Shown here: piece after piece, positions 33,920 through 56,746 of the stretch
Position numbering within the stretch: the first letter of the stretch is position 1
Layout: every line of letters begins with the position of its first letter
From: Betaproteobacteria bacterium
Lineage (GTDB): Bacteria > Pseudomonadota > Gammaproteobacteria > Burkholderiales > Ferrovaceae
Reading direction: 5' to 3'
Assembly (NCBI GenBank): GCA_018971415.1
Contig: JAGXAW010000007.1
Span: 1-59,056, forward strand
DNA length: 59,056 bases
Notes under the pieces: model-generated
Database searches by the model: none
The model's input: the letters and a program-made list of their open reading frames with translations, nothing else
Told to the model about the DNA's origin: nothing
Program-made: the position numbers and the translations under genes

Positions 33920-34150
33920 TTAACTTTTTTGATTATTATTGATCTTTTTCTCGAGTTCCTCCAGTCGTTCTCGAGTTTTTAGCAAAATAGCCTTTTGAAT
34001 ATCAAACTCCTCTCTTGTTACCCAACCACTATTAGCAAAAAAATTGGTCAATATTTGCCGAATATTTTGTTCAACATCTTTAATGGGTGTTTTTTCAATA
34101 CTAGACAATATTCTTCTTATGGTTTCTTCGATCAGGTTACTTTGAAACAT
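33920..34150 (-). CDS. ubiK: Ubiquinone biosynthesis accessory factor UbiK (YqiC/BMFP family)
   Basis: A 76-residue protein. The N-terminal amphipathic region is followed by VTREEFDIQKAILLKTRERLEEL, the family signature, and a C-terminal coiled coil (about 50-72) that trimerises. In E. coli, UbiK binds UbiJ and supports the aerobic ubiquinone-biosynthesis complex. A strong AAGGAGA lies upstream of the ATG. It is divergent from the porin-glnK-amtB operon, a neighbourhood seen in other betaproteobacteria. Confidence 0.9.
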   Translation of the reverse strand: MFQSNLIEETIRRILSSIEKTPIKDVEQNIRQILTNFFANSGWVTREEFDIQKAILLKTRERLEELEKKINNNQKS

Positions 34151-34173
34151 AAAGCCTCTCCTTTGAGAATAAA

Positions 34174-34190
34174 CGCACGCTTTTGGTGCA
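34174..34190 (+). promoter_or_regulatory. Candidate NtrC enhancer site of the porin-glnK-amtB operon
   Basis: A 17-base dyad with a perfect right arm TGGTGCA and an imperfect left arm CGCACGC, giving the core GCAC-N7-GTGC. It lies at about -126 to -110 from the predicted sigma-54 start at 34300. The same core and nearly the same distance occur upstream of glnA in this window. NtrC itself is encoded at 52506-53936. Confidence 0.6.
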
Positions 34191-34272
34191 TCTTAAATGA
34201 CTGTTTCACTTAATTGAGGCTATTTTAAGCAAATAACGTGTATAAAGGTGGCTTTAATAAAGAAAAAACGAG

Positions 34273-34289
34273 TTGGCACGAGTTATGCT
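34273..34289 (+). promoter_or_regulatory. Sigma-54 promoter of the porin-glnK-amtB operon
   Basis: TTGGCACG-AGTT-ATGCT matches the -24/-12 consensus TTGGCACG-N4-TTGCT in all but one base of the -12 block. The GG and GC doublets are separated by exactly ten bases, as required. Transcription would start near 34300, about 40 bases before the porin ATG at 34341. This indicates NtrC- and RpoN-dependent, nitrogen-starvation control. Confidence 0.8.
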
Positions 34290-34340
34290 TTGTAAGCAAA
34301 TGTAATGATTTTTAATTTGTTAATTTTTGGAGAACTTGAT

Positions 34341-35486
34341 ATGAAATTTAAAAAATCACTCTTAGCTTTGGCGTCTGTTGCGGCATTATTACCAGCAGGC
34401 TTGGCCTATGCTGATGATGCAAAGCCGGCAGATGCGAAACCTGCAGGACCTACCATCTCTGATGTGTTAACAAATTCAGGGATTGATATGAAAGGCTATT
34501 TTGATGCTTCTTATATTGGCAGCAATAAGACACCTAATTCTTCAATCCAGGTTTTTAACCAAGATAAAAACTCTTTTGCCTTACACCAATTCGGTATTAC
34601 CTTTTCAAAAACACCTAAAGAAGGGTTTGGTGCTCTTTTAAACTTAACAGCAGGTCGTGATGCACAAACTATCTCTTCCTATGGGGCAAGTAGTCAAAGC
34701 GTAGATGTTACTCAGGGCTATATTCAGTATGCCAAGGGGGCTTATACCTTAATTGGTGGTAAATTTACTACTCTAGCAGGCGCTGAAGTTATTGACAGTT
34801 CAGCTAATACAAACATTACCCGTTCAATTCTTTTTGGTAAGATCCCTTTTACTCATACTGGATTGAGATTAACAGATGCACTCTCTGACAGTACAAACTT
34901 AATTGTTGGCGTAAACAACGGTTGGGATCAAGTCACAGACACCAATACACAAAAGACCGTTGAATTAGGTTTAACAACAGCCTTTACCAAAGACACTTCA
35001 CTAGCAATTAGCGGTTATTCTGGAGCGGAAAACAGTTTTCCTAACGCAGGTTACGCTTATGGTACGGCAAATGCACCAAGTATTCCCAGCGGAACAAGGA
35101 ATTTGATTGATGCCGTGTTCACAACAAATATTACGCCTTCATTAACCTTTATTTTAAATGGCGATTATGTCTCGCAAGATAATGTTCCAGGTGTAAATGG
35201 TAAAGCCACTTATTCCGGTTTTGCTGGTTACTTAAATTATCAAATTTCAGACTTTTACCGTGTTTCGTTCCGTGCTGAAGAGGTTCGTGATGACAGTGGT
35301 TTGGCCACTGGTGCAACAACTCCCGGAGCAAATAATGTACGAGAGTTTACGCTGACAGCCGGCTATGCACCTGTTAAAAATGTCGAGATACGTGCTGAGG
35401 GACGTTACGATCATTCAGACTTAGCGGTTTACAGCGGCGGTAACAATATGACTACCTTTGGCCTACAGGGCATTTACAAGTTTTAA
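34341..35486 (+). CDS. Outer-membrane beta-barrel porin (BBP2/OmpL-like) of the nitrogen operon
   Basis: From ATG 34341 (GGAG about nine bases upstream) the protein is 381 residues. It has a clear signal peptide, KKSLLALASVAALLPAGLAYA, cut before DDAKPAD. A short Lys/Ala/Pro stretch and then alternating amphipathic strands follow, ending in an aromatic residue (GIYKF), the outer-membrane barrel signature. NSFALHQFGITFSK is typical of the BBP2/OmpL-like group. An upstream in-frame ATG at 34305 would spoil the signal peptide. It lies 26 bases before glnK, behind a sigma-54 promoter. I infer a channel for ammonium or another nitrogen source; the true substrate is unknown. Confidence 0.83.
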   Translation: MKFKKSLLALASVAALLPAGLAYADDAKPADAKPAGPTISDVLTNSGIDMKGYFDASYIGSNKTPNSSIQVFNQDKNSFALHQFGITFSKTPKEGFGALLNLTAGRDAQTISSYGASSQSVDVTQGYIQYAKGAYTLIGGKFTTLAGAEVIDSSANTNITRSILFGKIPFTHTGLRLTDALSDSTNLIVGVNNGWDQVTDTNTQKTVELGLTTAFTKDTSLAISGYSGAENSFPNAGYAYGTANAPSIPSGTRNLIDAVFTTNITPSLTFILNGDYVSQDNVPGVNGKATYSGFAGYLNYQISDFYRVSFRAEEVRDDSGLATGATTPGANNVREFTLTAGYAPVKNVEIRAEGRYDHSDLAVYSGGNNMTTFGLQGIYKF

Positions 35487-35491
35487 GGTAA

Positions 35492-35851
<360 letters not shown>

Positions 35852-35863
35852 AGGGGAATTGAA

Positions 35864-37309
35864 ATGAAAATACTAATGAACAGCTTCAAGGCGGCACTCA
35901 TTGTGTTGGCTTTAACTGTTGGTTCGCACCAAGCCTACGCAGATGATGCAGCGGCACCCGCAGCAGCAGCACCAGCTGCCGCCGCTCCTGCTACTGCAGC
36001 CCCGGCTCCTGCTCCCGCAGCAGCACCTGCAGCAGCGCCTGCAGCAGCGCCTGCAGCAGCGCCTGCACCAACGGCACCTTTTTTAACCGACTTTAGTAAG
36101 ATTAACTCAGGTGACACAGCATGGATGCTCACATCCACGGCTTTGGTTTTATTCATGACTATCCCTGGATTGGCTTTGTTTTACGGCGGTATGGTACGCA
36201 AAAAGAACGTACTGGCCACCCTAATGCAAAGTTTTGCTATCACCAGTTTAGTGACTATTCTTTGGGTAGTCGTTGGTTATAGCTTGGCTTTCATGCCAGG
36301 ATCCGGTTGGCTGGGTAATTTAGATCGCTTTATGTTGCATGGTATGCTCTATCAACATGATGCCTCTAAAGTCATGGTCTCGCACATTGCTTCAAATATC
36401 CCAGAGTCTGTTTACATGATGTTCCAAATGACCTTTGCCATCATTACCCCTGCATTAATTTGTGGTGCCTTTGCAGAGCGTATGAAGTTTTCAGCGATGT
36501 TGCTCTTTATGGCTATCTGGTCAATTGTTGTGTACTCACCTATTGCCCATTGGGTATGGGAACCAGGTGGCTGGTTAGCAGGTAAAGGAGTGCTCGACTT
36601 TGCTGGTGGTACAGTTGTACACATCAATGCGGGTATTGCAGGCTTAGCTGCAGCCTTGGTGTTAGGCAAACGTGTAGGTTACGGTAAAGAACCAATGGCT
36701 CCCCACAACCTCGTATTAACTTTAGTTGGTGCATCCATGTTGTGGGTGGGTTGGTTTGGCTTTAACGCAGGTTCAGCTGTTGCCGCCGATGGTCGTGCTG
36801 GAATGGCTATGGTAGTGACCCAAGTAGCTACCGCCGCAGCTGCACTGGCATGGATGTTCGCAGAATGGATAACCAAAGGTAAGCCTAGCGTTTTAGGTAT
36901 TGCATCAGGTGCTGTAGCAGGTTTAGTAGCGATTACGCCAGCGTCAGGTTTCGTTGATACCACAGGTGCTTTAATTATCGGTATTGCTGCCGGTGTAATT
37001 TGCTTCTGGGCTGCAACCAGCTTGAAACACATGCTGGGTTATGATGATTCATTAGATGCCTTCGGTGTGCACTGTGTGGGCGGTATTGTGGGTGCACTAT
37101 TAACCGGTGTGTTTAATGTTAAAGAGATCAGCGGTGTTGATGGTAGTTTCTTAACACAGGCTTTAGGGGTCAGCGTCACCGTGGTGTATGGTTTTGTGGT
37201 GTCCTACATTATCCTTAAAGTAGTTGATCTATTAGTTGGCTTAAAAGTCACAGAAGAAGAAGAAAGGGAAGGATTGGACTTGGTCTTGCATGGCGAGCGT
37301 GTCGAATAG
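35864..37309 (+). CDS. amtB: Ammonium transporter
   Basis: A 481-residue inner-membrane ammonium channel. A signal peptide (about 1-26, ending in AYA) precedes a 40-residue Ala/Pro-only tract (about 30-68). Eleven membrane segments starting at TAWMLTSTALVLFMTIPG follow. The conserved pore twin histidines lie in GGTVVHINAG and DAFGVHCVGG, and FNAGSAVAADG is another family block. The cytosolic C-terminal tail (KVTEEEEREGLDLVLHGE) is the GlnK-interacting helix. Signal-bearing Amt proteins are normal in proteobacteria; the long Ala/Pro tether encoded by tandem repeats is the oddity. An intrinsic terminator follows. Confidence 0.97.
   Translation: MKILMNSFKAALIVLALTVGSHQAYADDAAAPAAAAPAAAAPATAAPAPAPAAAPAAAPAAAPAAAPAPTAPFLTDFSKINSGDTAWMLTSTALVLFMTIPGLALFYGGMVRKKNVLATLMQSFAITSLVTILWVVVGYSLAFMPGSGWLGNLDRFMLHGMLYQHDASKVMVSHIASNIPESVYMMFQMTFAIITPALICGAFAERMKFSAMLLFMAIWSIVVYSPIAHWVWEPGGWLAGKGVLDFAGGTVVHINAGIAGLAAALVLGKRVGYGKEPMAPHNLVLTLVGASMLWVGWFGFNAGSAVAADGRAGMAMVVTQVATAAAALAWMFAEWITKGKPSVLGIASGAVAGLVAITPASGFVDTTGALIIGIAAGVICFWAATSLKHMLGYDDSLDAFGVHCVGGIVGALLTGVFNVKEISGVDGSFLTQALGVSVTVVYGFVVSYIILKVVDLLVGLKVTEEEEREGLDLVLHGERVE
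36019..36066 (+). repeat. Four tandem copies of a 12-base repeat inside amtB
   Basis: The unit AGCAGCGCCTGC occurs exactly at 36031, 36043 and 36055, with a one-mismatch copy at 36019. It encodes the repeated Ala-Ala-Pro-Ala of the periplasmic tether of AmtB. The unit is a multiple of three, so slippage would change tether length without breaking the frame. Confidence 0.95.
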
Positions 37310-37332
37310 TTTATCCCTCTAGACTCTCCTCC

Positions 37333-37356
37333 AGGCGCCTTCGGGCGCCTTTTTTT
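37333..37356 (+). terminator. Intrinsic terminator of the porin-glnK-amtB operon
   Basis: The stem AGGCGCC / GGCGCCT closes a stable TTCG tetraloop and is followed by a run of seven Ts. It starts 23 bases after the amtB stop codon and cleanly separates the nitrogen operon from metH. Confidence 0.96.
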
Positions 37357-51771: not shown

Positions 51772-52554
51772 ATGCGTATTGCCACATGGAACGTTAATTC
51801 AATAAAAGTCCGCATGGAGCAAGTTGGTGATTGGCTCACTCAAGTTAAGCCCGATGTACTGTGTTTACAAGAGTTAAAGTGTGAAACCGATCAATTCCCC
51901 AAGGATTACTTTAGCGCTTTAGGCTACGATGCAACCATTGCAGGTCAAAAAACCTATAATGGCGTTGCTATTTTAAGCCGTCATCATTTAGTAGACAGCC
52001 TCATTGGCATGCCCGAGTTTGACGATCATCAACAGCGCGTGGTGGCTGCCACCGTTAACCATGTTCGTGTAATCAGCGCCTATTGTCCCAATGGTGAATC
52101 GGTGACCTCTGATAAGTATCACTATAAACTGAATTGGTTTAATGCCTTTAACGGATACCTTAAAAATCAAATAGCCTCCCATCAGAAAGTCATTGTATTA
52201 GGAGACTTTAATATCGCTCCTGCAGACCTTGATGTGTACGATCCGAAAGCTTATGAAAACGACGTACTCTGCACAGATTTAGAGCGACAAGCTTTTCAAG
52301 ATTTGCTCTCCTTAGGGTTTATCGATGCTTATCGCCACTGCCACAACGATTTACCTGGCTTTACTTGGTGGCATTATAGAATGAATGCGTTTAAGCGTAA
52401 GATGGGTTTGAGAATCGATCACGCTTTGGTGAGTCACTCTCTCTTACCTGAGTTATCTGACTGCCAGGTAGATGCGTTACCAAGAGCCAACGAACGCCCC
52501 TCTGATCATGCTCCGTTGTTTGTCGATTTGTCCTCTTCCAATCCCAATTCTTGA
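51772..52554 (+). CDS. xthA: Exodeoxyribonuclease III
   Basis: AP endonuclease and 3'-5' exonuclease of base-excision repair. The 260 residues have the EEP-family motifs: ATWNVNSIKVRMEQV, LCLQELKCE with the metal-binding Glu, SAYCPNGESV, LGDFNIAPADLDVYDP, FTWWHYR and the terminal ERPSDHAPLFVDL with catalytic Asp-His. It sits one base after prlC. Its 3' end overlaps the convergent ntrC gene by 49 bases, an unusually long overlap for two complete conserved genes. Confidence 0.96.
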   Translation: MRIATWNVNSIKVRMEQVGDWLTQVKPDVLCLQELKCETDQFPKDYFSALGYDATIAGQKTYNGVAILSRHHLVDSLIGMPEFDDHQQRVVAATVNHVRVISAYCPNGESVTSDKYHYKLNWFNAFNGYLKNQIASHQKVIVLGDFNIAPADLDVYDPKAYENDVLCTDLERQAFQDLLSLGFIDAYRHCHNDLPGFTWWHYRMNAFKRKMGLRIDHALVSHSLLPELSDCQVDALPRANERPSDHAPLFVDLSSSNPNS

Positions 52555-53936
52555 ATTTTACGGGTCAGTGTATTCCTCCCCCAACCCAATAAATGAGCCG
52601 CTTCGATTTTCTTCCCCGCCGTATGAGCTAGGGCCTGCTCAATCAAAATACGTTCAAATTCGATAATTAAACGATTTAAAATGCCCTGCTCTCCTTGAGT
52701 GAGGGATGAGGCTACTTCCATTTTTAGGGCATTTTGCCAAGTGAGTGAGGAATGAGTAGATTTGTCTATGCTCTCTTGGGTTGAAGGAGTTCTAATATCT
52801 TCAGGTAAATCTGCAGTATCCACCGACACACCAGGCGCCATGACGCTTACCCAGTGACAGAGATTTTCTAATTGCCTAACGTTACCTCGCCAAGGTAGGG
52901 TTTTTAAGAAGGCCATGGCATTGTCGGTAAAGCGTTTGGTTTCAACCTGAAGCTCGCGAGCGCTTTTTTGTAAAAAATAACGAGCCAGTAAAGGGATATC
53001 ATCTCGTCTGTCATGTAAGGAGGGAATTCGTATACGTATCACATTGAGTCGATGATAAAGGTCCTCACGGAAAAGTCCTTCATTGACTCGTTGCTCAAGA
53101 TTTTGGTGGGTAGCAGCAATAATTCTGACTTGGCTTGCTATCGGAGAATGCCCTCCCACGCGATAATAGTGGCCATCTGACAAGACGCGAAGAAGACGAG
53201 TCTGTAAATCTGCTGGCATATCACCGATCTCATCTAAGAAAAGAGTACCTCCCTCAGCTTGTTCAAAGCGGCCTTTACGTAATGTGTTCGCCCCAGTGAA
53301 GGCCCCTCTCTCGTGACCAAAGAGTTCTGATTCTAATAATTCTTTTGGGATAGCGGCAGTGTTAATGGCAATAAAAGGTTTATTGGCTCTTTGACTGTGT
53401 CGATGGAGGGCACGCGCCACAAGCTCCTTCCCTGTTCCAGACTCGCCGGTGATGAGGACGGTTGCTGTGGATTGCGACAAGCGACCAATAGCCCGAAAGA
53501 CCTCTTGCATGGCAGGCGCTTGCCCTAAAATTTCAGGGGTCAGGCTGTCATCAACGGTGGTGTTCTCAAAATTTGCACTTTCATTAATTGCTCGTCTGAT
53601 GAGTTCGATGGCATGATCCACATCAAAGGGTTTAGGTAAATATTCATAAGCTCCGCCCTGAAAGGCGCTCACTGCACTCTCCAGGTCAGAGTAAGCCGTC
53701 ATGATAATGACGGGTAAGTTTGGGTTGTGCTCTTTGAGTTTTTCCAGTAAAACAAGACCCGAGTGACCAGGCATACGAATATCACTCACCACAATTTGCG
53801 GCTGTTCGTCTTCCAAGGCTTCCAAGGCTTCTGGAGCAGATGAAAAGGTCTTATAAGCAATATTTTCTCGCGTTAATGCTTTTTCAAATACCCATCTAAT
53901 TGAACGATCATCATCTACTATCCAAACAGGTTTCAT
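52506..53936 (-). CDS. ntrC: Nitrogen regulation response regulator NtrC
   Basis: Sigma-54 activator of nitrogen-assimilation genes. The 476 residues have a receiver domain with phosphoacceptor Asp52 (VVSDIRMPG). The AAA+ domain has Walker A GESGTGKE, the sigma-54-contacting loop GAFTGA, and Walker B GGTLFLDEIGDMP. A C-terminal Fis-type helix-turn-helix ends in LLGWGRNTLTRKIQELGLE. Everything needed for activation is present. Candidate targets in this window are the glnA and porin-glnK-amtB promoters. It follows ntrB by 27 bases and overlaps xthA by 49. Confidence 0.97.
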   Translation of the reverse strand: MKPVWIVDDDRSIRWVFEKALTRENIAYKTFSSAPEALEALEDEQPQIVVSDIRMPGHSGLVLLEKLKEHNPNLPVIIMTAYSDLESAVSAFQGGAYEYLPKPFDVDHAIELIRRAINESANFENTTVDDSLTPEILGQAPAMQEVFRAIGRLSQSTATVLITGESGTGKELVARALHRHSQRANKPFIAINTAAIPKELLESELFGHERGAFTGANTLRKGRFEQAEGGTLFLDEIGDMPADLQTRLLRVLSDGHYYRVGGHSPIASQVRIIAATHQNLEQRVNEGLFREDLYHRLNVIRIRIPSLHDRRDDIPLLARYFLQKSARELQVETKRFTDNAMAFLKTLPWRGNVRQLENLCHWVSVMAPGVSVDTADLPEDIRTPSTQESIDKSTHSSLTWQNALKMEVASSLTQGEQGILNRLIIEFERILIEQALAHTAGKKIEAAHLLGWGRNTLTRKIQELGLEEDKSTNNGA

Positions 53937-53963: not shown

Positions 53964-55022
53964 TTAGTTATATTCTGTTTCGGTTATGGGGAGGACTAAA
54001 TCAAAACAGGTATATCCTGGTCGACTTTCAAACTCAACCATCCCATAGTGTTGACTAATCAAATTCTGTGCCAACATTAACCCCAACCCTGTTCCTCCCT
54101 CACGGCCTGACACTAGCGGCTGAAAAATTCGCGGTTGCAGCTGTGTTGGAATACCGGGCCCGTTATCAATAATTCTAACGACAATGCCCAATTTAAAGCG
54201 TCTTTTAGCTAAGGTGATCTGGCGCAGTATGCGGGTTTGTAAGCGAATAACACCTTGCTCTTGAATCGCTTGTGCGGCGTTACGCACAATATTAAGAATC
54301 GCTTGAATGAGCTGTTCGCGATCAGCCAGAAACTCTGGAATGCTCGTGTCGTAGTCACGTTGGATGGTGATTCTTTCCGGGAACTCAGCCAAGGTGACGC
54401 TGCGCACTCTCTCAAGTACTTCATGAATGTTAAGTGGTGCAGTTTGGTGCAACCGACTGTTTGGACTGAGCATTCGATCAAGTAACAGTTGCAGACGATC
54501 TGCTTCGTTTTTTATAACTTGGGTGTATTCTTTGAGCTCTATTTGCGTCAGTTCTTTTTCAAGTAATTGAGCGGCTCCCTTTATACCACCTAACGGATTT
54601 CTAATTTCATGGGCAAGGTTACGCACCAACTGTCTGTTAACTTCTTGGTCTTGAATGATTTTTTCTTCTTTTTCTATTTTTACTCGCTGGTTGATTGGCC
54701 TAAATTCTAAGAGAATACCAGAGGGTCGATCATCCAGTGGTGTGCCGGTACAGCTTAGTATAAGTTTTACATGAGAGGTGGAATTAAAGGACCATTCATG
54801 CTCAATAAAGCCCATTTTCTTATCCAGTGATTGGCGGCAGTCTTCAAGTAAACGGTCGATATTGGTGAGAACCAAACTTAAAGGTTGGTTCACCAGGTTT
54901 TTGCGACTAACAGCAAATAGGTCCTCAGCGGCGGTATTAATAAAAACAATGCTGAGTTCCGTATTCAGTACGATAACTGCTGTAGTGATTAAATCAAGTC
55001 CGTTATAGTCGTCGTTTTTCAT
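53964..55022 (-). CDS. ntrB: Nitrogen regulation sensor kinase NtrB
   Basis: PII-controlled histidine kinase/phosphatase for NtrC. From ATG 55022 the protein is 352 residues: an N-terminal PAS domain (AVIVLNTELSIVFINTAAEDLF), the H-box LAHEIRNPLGGIKGAAQLL, the N-box region NIVRNAAQAI, DNGPGIP and GGTGLGLMLAQ. It has no membrane segment, as expected for cytosolic NtrB. The frame extends upstream to a TTG at 55049 that lies inside the glnA terminator, so the ATG is preferred. It lies 98 bases after glnA, behind an intrinsic terminator. Confidence 0.96.
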   Translation of the reverse strand: MKNDDYNGLDLITTAVIVLNTELSIVFINTAAEDLFAVSRKNLVNQPLSLVLTNIDRLLEDCRQSLDKKMGFIEHEWSFNSTSHVKLILSCTGTPLDDRPSGILLEFRPINQRVKIEKEEKIIQDQEVNRQLVRNLAHEIRNPLGGIKGAAQLLEKELTQIELKEYTQVIKNEADRLQLLLDRMLSPNSRLHQTAPLNIHEVLERVRSVTLAEFPERITIQRDYDTSIPEFLADREQLIQAILNIVRNAAQAIQEQGVIRLQTRILRQITLAKRRFKLGIVVRIIDNGPGIPTQLQPRIFQPLVSGREGGTGLGLMLAQNLISQHYGMVEFESRPGYTCFDLVLPITETEYN

Positions 55023-55035
55023 GATTGATAAGGGT

Positions 55036-55074
55036 AAAAAAACCCGCAATCAGGATTAATCTTAATTGCGGGTT
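55036..55074 (-). terminator. Intrinsic terminator between glnA and ntrB
   Basis: On the minus strand AACCCGCAAT pairs with ATTGCGGGTT (10 of 10), and the 14 bases between can also pair partly. The stem is followed by a T run (forward A run 55036-55042). It ends glnA transcripts just 14 bases ahead of the ntrB start codon, so ntrBC expression should depend on read-through or on a promoter inside the gap. Confidence 0.9.
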
Positions 55075-55120: not shown

Positions 55121-56530
55121 TTACAGACTGTAATACATTTGGAATTCTAATGGATGGGTGGTCATACGGAATAGTGTGACTTCTTCCATTTTCAATGCAA
55201 TATAAGCATCAATCATTTCGTTAGAGAACACTCCACCACGTGTTAAGAATTCACGGTCTTTATCTAAAGCTGCTAAAGCTTCATCTAATGATGCTGCAGG
55301 CGCTGGAATCTTTGCATCTTCCTCAGGTGAGAGATGATAAAGATCTTTGTCTGAAGCTTCACCAGGATGAATTTTATTTTGCACACCGTCTAAGCCGGCC
55401 ATTAACATGGCAGCGAAAGCCAAGTATGGGTTAGCTGTAGGATCAGGGAAACGAACTTCTACGCGGCGAGCCTTATCGCTTTGTACGAAAGGCACGCGGA
55501 TAGCTGCAGAGCGGTTACGGGCTGAATAAGCTAACTTAACTGGGGCTTCAAAACCAGGTACCAAGCGCTTGTATGAGTTTGTGCTAGGATTGGTTAGTGC
55601 GTTGAGTGCTTTGGCGTGTTTGATAATACCGCCAATGTAATACAAGGCAAACTCAGACAATCCTGCATAGCCGTTACCCGCAAACAAGTTTTTACCGTCT
55701 TTCCAGACAGATTGGTGTACATGCATACCAGAGCCATTATCGCCAACAATAGGTTTTGGCATGAAGGTAGCTGTTTTACCGTAGGAATGAGCAACGTTAT
55801 GAACCACATATTTTAAAATTTGAGTCCAATCAGCGCGTTGCACGAGTGGTGCAAAGCGGGTTCCAATTTCACATTGCCCTGGAGCGGCCACTTCGTGGTG
55901 ATGCACTTCAACGGGTACGCCCATATCCTCAAGTGCTAGGCACATGGCAGAACGGATGTCTTGTAGTGAATCCACTGGAGGCACGGGGAAATAACCGCCT
56001 TTAACGGCAGGACGATGGCCCATGTTGCCGCCATCATATTCTTTACCAGATGACCATGGGGCCTCTTCCGTTTGAATTTTAACGCTGCAACCAGACATAT
56101 CAACGTGCCAGTTAACTGAGTCAAAAACAAAGAATTCGGGTTCTGGACCAAAGTAAGCCACATCACCGATACCACTAGACTTTAAGTAAGCTTCAGCGCG
56201 TTTGGCAATGGATCGTGGATCACGATCATAACCTTTTCCATCAGATGGCTCGATCACATCACAGGTTAAAATGAGGGTTGCCTCATCCATAAAGGGGTCA
56301 ATGTTAGCGGTACTGGCATCGGGCATTAGCAACATATCTGAAGCCTGAATACCTTTCCAGCCAGCAATGGAAGAACCATCGAAGGCATGACCTTCAGTAA
56401 ATTTGCTTTCATCAAAAGCGCTTACTGGAACAGTAACGTGCTGTTCTTTTCCGCGAGTATCGGTAAAACGAAAATCAACAAATCTGACTTCGTTTTCTTT
56501 AATCATTTGCATGATTTTTTCAACTGCCAT
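55121..56530 (-). CDS. glnA: Glutamine synthetase, type I
   Basis: Makes glutamine from glutamate, ammonium and ATP. From ATG 56530, six bases after AGGAG, the protein is 469 residues, exactly the usual length; an ATG two codons earlier would abut the ribosome site. Motifs: [24 protein letters not shown], the ATP region [30 protein letters not shown], and the adenylylation tyrosine in [11 protein letters not shown], so activity should be controlled by GlnE. Transcription is predicted from a sigma-54 promoter with an upstream NtrC site. Confidence 0.98.
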
Positions 56531-56622
56531 TTTCATCTCCTAGTTGGTTAATCTAAGGAGCCATTAATCAACGTATTTTGTAGCATTGATACTTAACGAC
56601 TCGGAATTCTAGCTATAAGTAA

Positions 56623-56639
56623 AGCACTTTGTATGCCAA
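56623..56639 (-). promoter_or_regulatory. Sigma-54 promoter of glnA
   Basis: The minus strand reads TTGGCATA-CAAA-GTGCT, close to the -24/-12 consensus TTGGCACG-N4-TTGCT. GG and GC are separated by exactly ten bases. The predicted start is near 56612. The match is weaker than that of the porin operon, but position, upstream NtrC site and gene function all agree. Confidence 0.75.
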
Positions 56640-56729: not shown

Positions 56730-56746
56730 TGCACCATTATAGTGCA
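56730..56746 (-). promoter_or_regulatory. NtrC enhancer site of glnA
   Basis: The dyad TGCACCA-TTA-TAGTGCA is symmetric in six of seven arm positions and matches the known NtrC consensus (TGCACCA-N3-TGGTGCA) in all but one base. It lies at about -134 to -118 from the predicted start, similar to the enhancer distances of enteric glnA. Confidence 0.78.

Follow-up and report, generated by a model that had tools for sequence, protein, structure and literature searches.

A porin-glnK-amtB operon with a conserved sigma-54 promoter in the Ferrovaceae, and the barrel families that share its first position

The window analysed here, 59,056 nucleotides of contig JAGXAW010000007.1, comes from an iron-oxidising bacterium of the Ferrovum family (Ferrovaceae, where related genomes and records named Ferrovum and Ferrovaceae place it; a 1.5 Mb draft genome, referred to as G000) and carries on its + strand, at 34174-37350, a three-gene operon encoding a BBP2/OmpL-type porin, the PII protein GlnK and the ammonium transporter AmtB. 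Control of this operon by the nitrogen regulator NtrC and by RpoN (sigma-54) is, to judge from the sequence, close to certain, since its promoter element is conserved, RpoN and the NtrB-NtrC pair are encoded in the same genome, and an analogous operon is known. The latter, nlmA-glnK-amtB of Herbaspirillum seropedicae (formerly orf1-glnK-amtB), is NtrC-dependent and 21 times more highly expressed under nitrogen limitation (PMC3023670; this and the other papers are cited from excerpts). Both operons consist of a membrane-protein gene, glnK and amtB in this order; they differ in that the first gene of the window's operon encodes a BBP2 barrel, whereas NlmA was placed by its authors most probably in the periplasm (PMC3023670). 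The operon type and the regulatory idea are already known from Herbaspirillum. Added here are the occupation of the slot before glnK by two barrel families, the reach of the BBP2 link into other lineages, a promoter shift in sister species and a connection to the potassium pump Kdp.

Promoter, gene order and porin family in the Ferrovaceae

A preliminary description of this DNA had proposed sigma-54/NtrC control of a porin together with glnK-amtB, citing a near-perfect -24/-12 element and an NtrC-like dyad at about -118; such control is strongly supported, and both positions held on recomputation. Scored against the consensus strings for -24/-12 elements and NtrC dyads, the GG-N10-GC element upstream of the porin gene agrees at 11 of 12 positions, the highest score that any such site reaches in the 59 kb (Table 1). 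Setting the C of its GC (34288) as -12 places transcription initiation at about 34300 and the dyad centre at -118. The exact dyad GCAC-N7-GTGC occurs twice in the window, before the porin gene and before glnA (56731). Element and upstream dyad, the promoter features of an NtrC/RpoN regulon, are matched by the regulators, as RpoN (at G000:C9), NtrB and NtrC are all encoded in the genome. Five Pfam matches to sigma-54 activators were found there, two of them strong: NtrC and a protein whose best model is GlrR, with a score below that model's cut-off. In Paraburkholderia phymatum, a predicted RpoN box precedes a PII-amtB pair and expression of amtB is RpoN-dependent (PMC5979394).

A porin match is present in 31 of 32 Ferrovaceae genomes, and glnK lies 18 to 42 bases after a porin 3' end in 28 of these 31; the contigs of G007, G016 and G018 do not show the place after the porin 3' end. 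Conservation of the element, proposed earlier as a check on the promoter, was assessed in the 29 genomes with a readable gap between porin and the divergent gene ubiK, counting as kept any element that scored at least 10. The element is kept in 26 of the 29 (0.62 expected in shuffles); of the same 29, 18 have an exact dyad (0.22 expected in shuffles) and, with at most one mismatch allowed, 24 have a dyad (4.9 expected).

The three genomes lacking the element before the first porin gene, G029, G030 and G031, are the three other genomes of the window's genus and display the order ubiK, porin1-glnK1-porin2-glnK2-amtB (pieced together from two contigs in G031), with an element scoring 10 or 11, and no exact dyad, before porin2. 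In the tree, the window porin is the ortholog of their porin1 (support 100/100), while porin2 clusters with the pair of Ferrovum porins found on either side of glnK-amtB (100/98). The simplest reading is that sigma-54 control remains with whichever porin is linked to amtB. The glnK1 of G029 is altered at both ends and 92% like the glnK of the window; the complete glnK copies of G029-G031 (L101-L104) are 98-99% like it and look as if kept alike by conversion, and porin2 is 51-52% like the window porin. Duplication of the porin also occurs in Ferrovum: group g4 (L012, L017, L105) has porin A before glnK and a diverged porin B between amtB and metH. G011 (L050, L051/L266) contains elsewhere a second copy of the 5' part of porin A, differing at 38 of 700 bases, in whose 300 upstream bases no sigma-54 element was found (best score 5).

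The identification of the three genes as a BBP2-type porin, PII and the ammonium channel was confirmed by Pfam and NCBIfam. The genes are separated by 26 bases (porin-glnK) and 12 bases (glnK-amtB), and neither gap contains a terminator-like site on the + strand; a strong intrinsic terminator follows amtB, before metH, the next gene downstream. A terminator directly after the porin gene, which according to the preliminary description would speak against a common operon, was thus not seen between the genes. The terminator scan returned 5 sites in all against 3.7 expected, three weaker ones lying inside amtB. A sigma-70-like match (9/12) lies in the porin 3' end at 35352-35381, one of 4 such matches in the region against 6.5 in shuffles. 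A separate promoter or terminator for glnK-amtB was accordingly rejected at the level of sequence.

The porin reading frame begins with an ATG at 34341, preceded by GGAG, and extends with its stop codon to 35486. The protein matches PF07642 over profile positions 2-339 of 339 (200.1 bits; cut-off 26.2), a full-length family match, and has a signal peptide-like N terminus and a C-terminal Phe (...IYKF), the aromatic end of BBP2 barrels. BBP2 is its only Pfam match, and NCBIfam gave none at E 0.001, so that the protein is not a member of TIGR02001/PF09694. The AlphaFold2 model (mean pLDDT 86.7) has 16 strands and a helix-bearing loop L3 (residues 144-170) after strand 5. Loop L3 and, in L4, the motif NNGWDQ show strong conservation; E149, N158 and R161 are among the conserved residues. 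The predicted fold resembles OprP/OprO, DcaP, Omp32 and other 16-strand porins (best Z 27 to 24) at 7 to 16% identity, and a sequence-profile search of the PDB gave no match. The structural matches are porins in general: OprO/OprP at Z 27, BpsOmp38 at 24.4, DcaP and the anion-selective 1e54 at 24.2. The match to OprO (4rjw) has Z 27.1, rmsd 4.9, 325 aligned residues and 13% identity, and involves a fold common to many of the porins listed. The comparison identifies a porin but not its cargo.

Barrel genes in other lineages, viral contigs and Kdp operons

In the order, two kinds of barrel, BBP2 and TorF/Gcw_chp, occupy the position upstream of glnK. PII matches were found in 56 of 60 order genomes, and the 30 best-scoring glnK loci were read, two of which are cut by contig ends. 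Among the 28 uncut loci, 24 have a barrel gene before glnK: 19 Gcw_chp/TorF and five BBP2, the latter including the window and G030. An element scoring at least 10 precedes 19 of the 24 barrel-holding loci, compared with 0.58 expected. Because barrels of two families fill most of the slots and most of these have the element, slot and promoter are conserved and the barrel is exchangeable. TorF/Gcw_chp proteins (TIGR02001/PF09694) share with the window porin the slot, which they occupy in most of the order loci read, and the kind of -24/-12 element, and differ from it in being shorter (about 250 aa); the alignment of the two profiles covers the N-terminal part only. Treating BBP2 and TorF as one family was rejected on that alignment (hhalign probability 66.8%, 81 columns). 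From the order survey, NlmA is more likely a TorF/Gcw_chp protein than a BBP2 protein. The preliminary description had placed a porin before glnK-amtB in other betaproteobacteria; the picture is wider, since TorF/Gcw_chp is the usual occupant of the slot in the order and both families also occur, rarely, beside Kdp.

The BBP2-GlnK-Amt link reaches gammaproteobacteria and viral amt loci. With an E cut-off of 1e-10, the porin profile finds a match in 10 of 185 genomes of the class; five of the six matches above 200 bits adjoin glnK-amtB (L191 does not), and none of the weaker ones does so within the stretch read. The porin stands beside glnK and/or amtB in records named Beta- and Gammaproteobacteria. 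Six loci have the order glnK-amtB-porin (L022, L024, L029, L034, L046, L047), all six with an element before glnK that scores 10 to 12. Their records are named Gammaproteobacteria, Steroidobacteraceae and Betaproteobacteria, apart from L022, named ANGP1, which is doubtful given its closeness in the tree to L024. Two loci were left out of the six: L026, whose contig shows amtB-porin but stops short of glnK, and L045, in which the porin follows a partial glnK match. Two Myxococcota records, named Deltaproteobacteria and Anaeromyxobacter (L054, L056), have the porin just after an amtB relative. In L053, from a metagenome-assembled genome (MAG), a second glnK-amt pair comes after ubiK-porin-glnK-amt. 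In L036 and L038, both from MAGs, porin relatives adjoin a MASE3-PAS-GGDEF-EAL protein, and L038 has a tandem porin pair.

Viral amt loci were found through Amt and then searched with a profile built on the window porin and its relatives. Among the best 80 of 215 such loci, 10 contain a BBP2 gene (E 4.7e-30 to 3.9e-25), each time arranged PII-Amt-BBP2, and none of the other frames of at least 60 residues in these 80 loci matched the profile; the set includes the near-duplicates L143/L144 and L175/L176. Pfam recognised BBP2 in all four viral porins checked, and of nine neighbour proteins from three viral loci, five match PHROGs families, including replication proteins and a head-closure protein. 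The porin sequence itself, used as query, returned no viral relatives. A PII-Amt-OmpL trio in phage contigs, with the association stated to occur only in Flavobacteriales, is described in the excerpt of PMC8115048, to whose PII-1 group the viral loci found here may belong. In that trio, too, genes for PII, Amt and an OmpL-type porin adjoin one another; the porin comes last there and first in the window's operon. The BBP2-GlnK-Amt loci in Pseudomonadota contradict the statement, as worded in that excerpt, that the association is confined to Flavobacteriales. Since the viral, Myxococcota and Omnitrophota porins sit on long branches and their place in the tree is unsure, no single amt-linked clade is claimed.

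Both barrel families also occur, rarely, directly after kdpC, a gene of the potassium pump Kdp. The first case, a close porin relative after kdpC on a Gallionellaceae contig (L042), had been chosen as a porin relative and is not independent. Loci selected for Kdp gave the same arrangement. In the class, a porin is present at 1 of 13 KdpC loci, with BBP2 between kdpC and kdpD in L230. In the order, where 50 of 150 genomes have KdpC and 30 loci were examined (L285 and L288 end just after kdpC), a barrel occurs at two, as BBP2 25 bases after kdpC in L283 and as Gcw_chp 24 bases after it in L287. Two of the 12 Ferrovaceae genomes with KdpD, G025 and G026, have a porin-kdpD link; in the other 10, kdpC is followed directly by kdpD. 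With frequencies of 2/30, 1/13 and 2/12, these links are a lead, not a rule.

In G026 (L247/L248), the glnK-amtB contig and the kdpD contig both end in the same 127 porin 3' bases and then diverge; in G025 (L249/L250), the shared part of the porin is 121 bases long, and kdpD and kdpE follow the porin on the contig that also carries ubiK and the element. Because identical porin 3' ends lead to glnK-amtB and to kdpD, the same porin is probably used, or was until recently, by an ammonium as well as a potassium operon in these genomes, which are drafts whose contigs meet inside the porin gene, so that a chimera or strain mixture is possible, above all at the G025 join. The source genome has no KdpC or KdpD match, and a tblastn search for Kdp in 21 unlinked or doubtful relative loci found only L042. 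No paper joining KdpC, porin and OmpL turned up in the open-licence literature searched, and the excerpts of PMC8674442, PMC10782981 and PMC11332353 contain nothing on a porin arrangement.

Proposed mechanism, cargo and competing explanations

Low glutamine would lead NtrB to phosphorylate NtrC, which would bind the dyad at -118 and activate RpoN polymerase at the -24/-12 element. A single transcript would then comprise porin, glnK and amtB and end at the terminator after amtB. The porin would form a 16-strand outer-membrane channel through which ammonium, a small monovalent cation, enters more easily, and the periplasmic supply would thereby keep pace with AmtB, gated by GlnK. We give even chances to this explanation as a whole, a nitrogen-starvation operon whose porin passes ammonium. 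That the cargo consists of monovalent cations (ammonium, potassium) is itself a roughly balanced proposition, small cations being preferred to nitrogen compounds in general because both barrel families also adjoin Kdp. Of the dedicated entry route for times of nitrogen scarcity suggested in the preliminary description, the control by nitrogen regulators is strongly supported, while a route dedicated to nitrogen is plausible. The cargo of the porin is given by no paper in the open-licence literature searched.

Several findings weigh against a regulated ammonium channel. On the usual view, ammonium crosses the outer membrane freely via general porins, and an ion so small should indeed pass them. 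The top structural matches include the phosphate porins OprO/OprP, the anion-selective 1e54 and DcaP, none of which is known as a cation channel. Conservation of L3 and L4 extends to relatives without an amt neighbour, and the Kdp links are rare at the frequencies given above. In ten of 54 relative loci (L027, L031, L035, L036, L038-L041, L044, L055; some of them truncated at one end), the stretch read contains no glnK, amtB or Kdp gene; BBP2 relatives therefore serve elsewhere too. The detached porin1 of G029-G031 is without a sigma-54 element, G002 has glnK-amtB and no porin match, and a barrel before glnK is missing from 4 of the 28 uncut order loci, three of which keep an element that scores 10 or 11; for these three reasons the porin is dispensable.

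It is possible, if less than probable, that the porin, under NtrC control, scavenges nitrogenous solutes in general (amino acids, urea, nitrate, short peptides), its placement with glnK-amtB reflecting shared regulation only. The fold match, generic for 16-strand porins, would suit such a channel, as would the binding of Pseudomonas aeruginosa NtrC to the promoter region of oprD, which encodes a basic amino acid porin (PMC13029640), and the use of urea and nitrate predicted from the Ferrovum JA12 genome (PMC4725956). This reading fits less well with the repeated linkage to amt and glnK in several lineages and in phages, and with Kdp, rather than a system for amino acids, urea or nitrate, being the other recurrent partner found. 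The neighbour surveys covered Amt/glnK and Kdp loci; in addition, ten neighbour proteins from eight unlinked loci were compared with Pfam, which identified KdpC in L042, a P-type ATPase farther along in L035, MASE3-GGDEF-EAL proteins in L036 and L038, and nothing else shared among these ten.

An explanation that we regard as unlikely is that porin synthesis remodels the outer membrane of starved cells, through porin exchange, charge balance for cation uptake or reduced phage exposure, without carrying a nitrogen source. Two barrel families fill the slot, so a generic barrel may suffice, and in Ferrovum the porin has been duplicated and varied around glnK-amtB (porins A and B); the conserved L3 and L4 residues suggest a constrained channel instead, and the PII-Amt-BBP2 trio on viral contigs suggests use in uptake. 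Finally, a chance -24/-12 match in an operon read from a sigma-70 promoter is very improbable: loosely defined, the pattern occurs often in the window (46 matches with at most two mismatches against 35.8 expected, not significant by itself) and a weak sigma-70-like match sits slightly upstream, at 34142-34170, but the conservation of the element, with its dyads, led us to reject chance, and no sigma-70-like match was found from 34171 to the porin start.

More broadly, and tentatively, BBP2/OmpL and TorF/Gcw_chp barrels could be interchangeable outer-membrane channels by which small monovalent cations enter, each combined with the inner-membrane uptake system that is needed: Amt/GlnK (under NtrC) for ammonium, Kdp for potassium. 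The porin would be copied between operons within one genome, and phages would carry the ammonium set. If true, two barrel families without a cargo class would gain one, and the outer membrane would limit the scavenging of ammonium and potassium. A barrel that is apparently starvation-induced in one operon with the ammonium channel, conserved and swapped between families, with viral and Kdp links, points to the outer membrane as a controlled step in small-cation scavenging, and a concrete assay and candidate organisms are now at hand for both families, for which the literature searched gave no cargo.

Other features of the window

Besides the operon, the window contains glnA-ntrB-ntrC, preceded by a second element and dyad, and ubiK, which adjoins the slot before glnK in many loci (Table 1).

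Table 1. Coordinates of the operon, its regulatory sites and related genes (window positions unless a locus is named)
Feature	Position	Strand	Basis
ubiK (ubiquinone accessory factor), divergent, locus marker	33931-34150	-	Pfam BMFP E 1.3e-18
NtrC-like dyad CGCAC-N7-GTGCA	34174-34190		centre 34182, about -118
Sigma-54 -24/-12 element TTGGCACGAGTTATGCT	34273-34289	+	11/12 consensus positions; +1 about 34300
BBP2/OmpL-type porin, 381 aa	34341-35486	+	Pfam PF07642 E 7.5e-59; predicted 16-strand barrel, long L3
glnK (PII)	35513-35851	+	Pfam P-II; NCBIfam PRK10665 188 bits, cut-off 181
amtB (ammonium transporter)	35864-37309	+	Pfam Ammonium_transp; TIGR00836 445 bits, cut-off 343
Intrinsic terminator, 7-pair stem, 4-base loop, T run	37333-37350	+	after amtB; strong
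ntrC, likely operon activator	52506-53936	-	NCBIfam TIGR01818 707 bits, cut-off 558.6
ntrB	53964-55049	-	NCBIfam NR(II) 332 bits, cut-off 240
glnA, first gene of glnA-ntrB-ntrC	55121-56536	-	TIGR00653 668.5 bits, cut-off 429
Second -24/-12-like element, upstream of glnA	56623-56638	-	score 9/12; exact dyad 56731-56745
TorF/Gcw_chp gene directly after kdpC	L287:613-1470		

Two further NCBIfam scores lie below their cut-offs, that of UbiK (E 1.3e-15, 57.5 bits; cut-off 100) and that of AmtB against the equivalog PRK10666 (454 bits; cut-off 657). The source genome also encodes a second, distant member of the Amt family at G000:C28:11087-12232 (L097), 35% identical to AmtB, and similar genes are present in G030, G031, G025 and G026.
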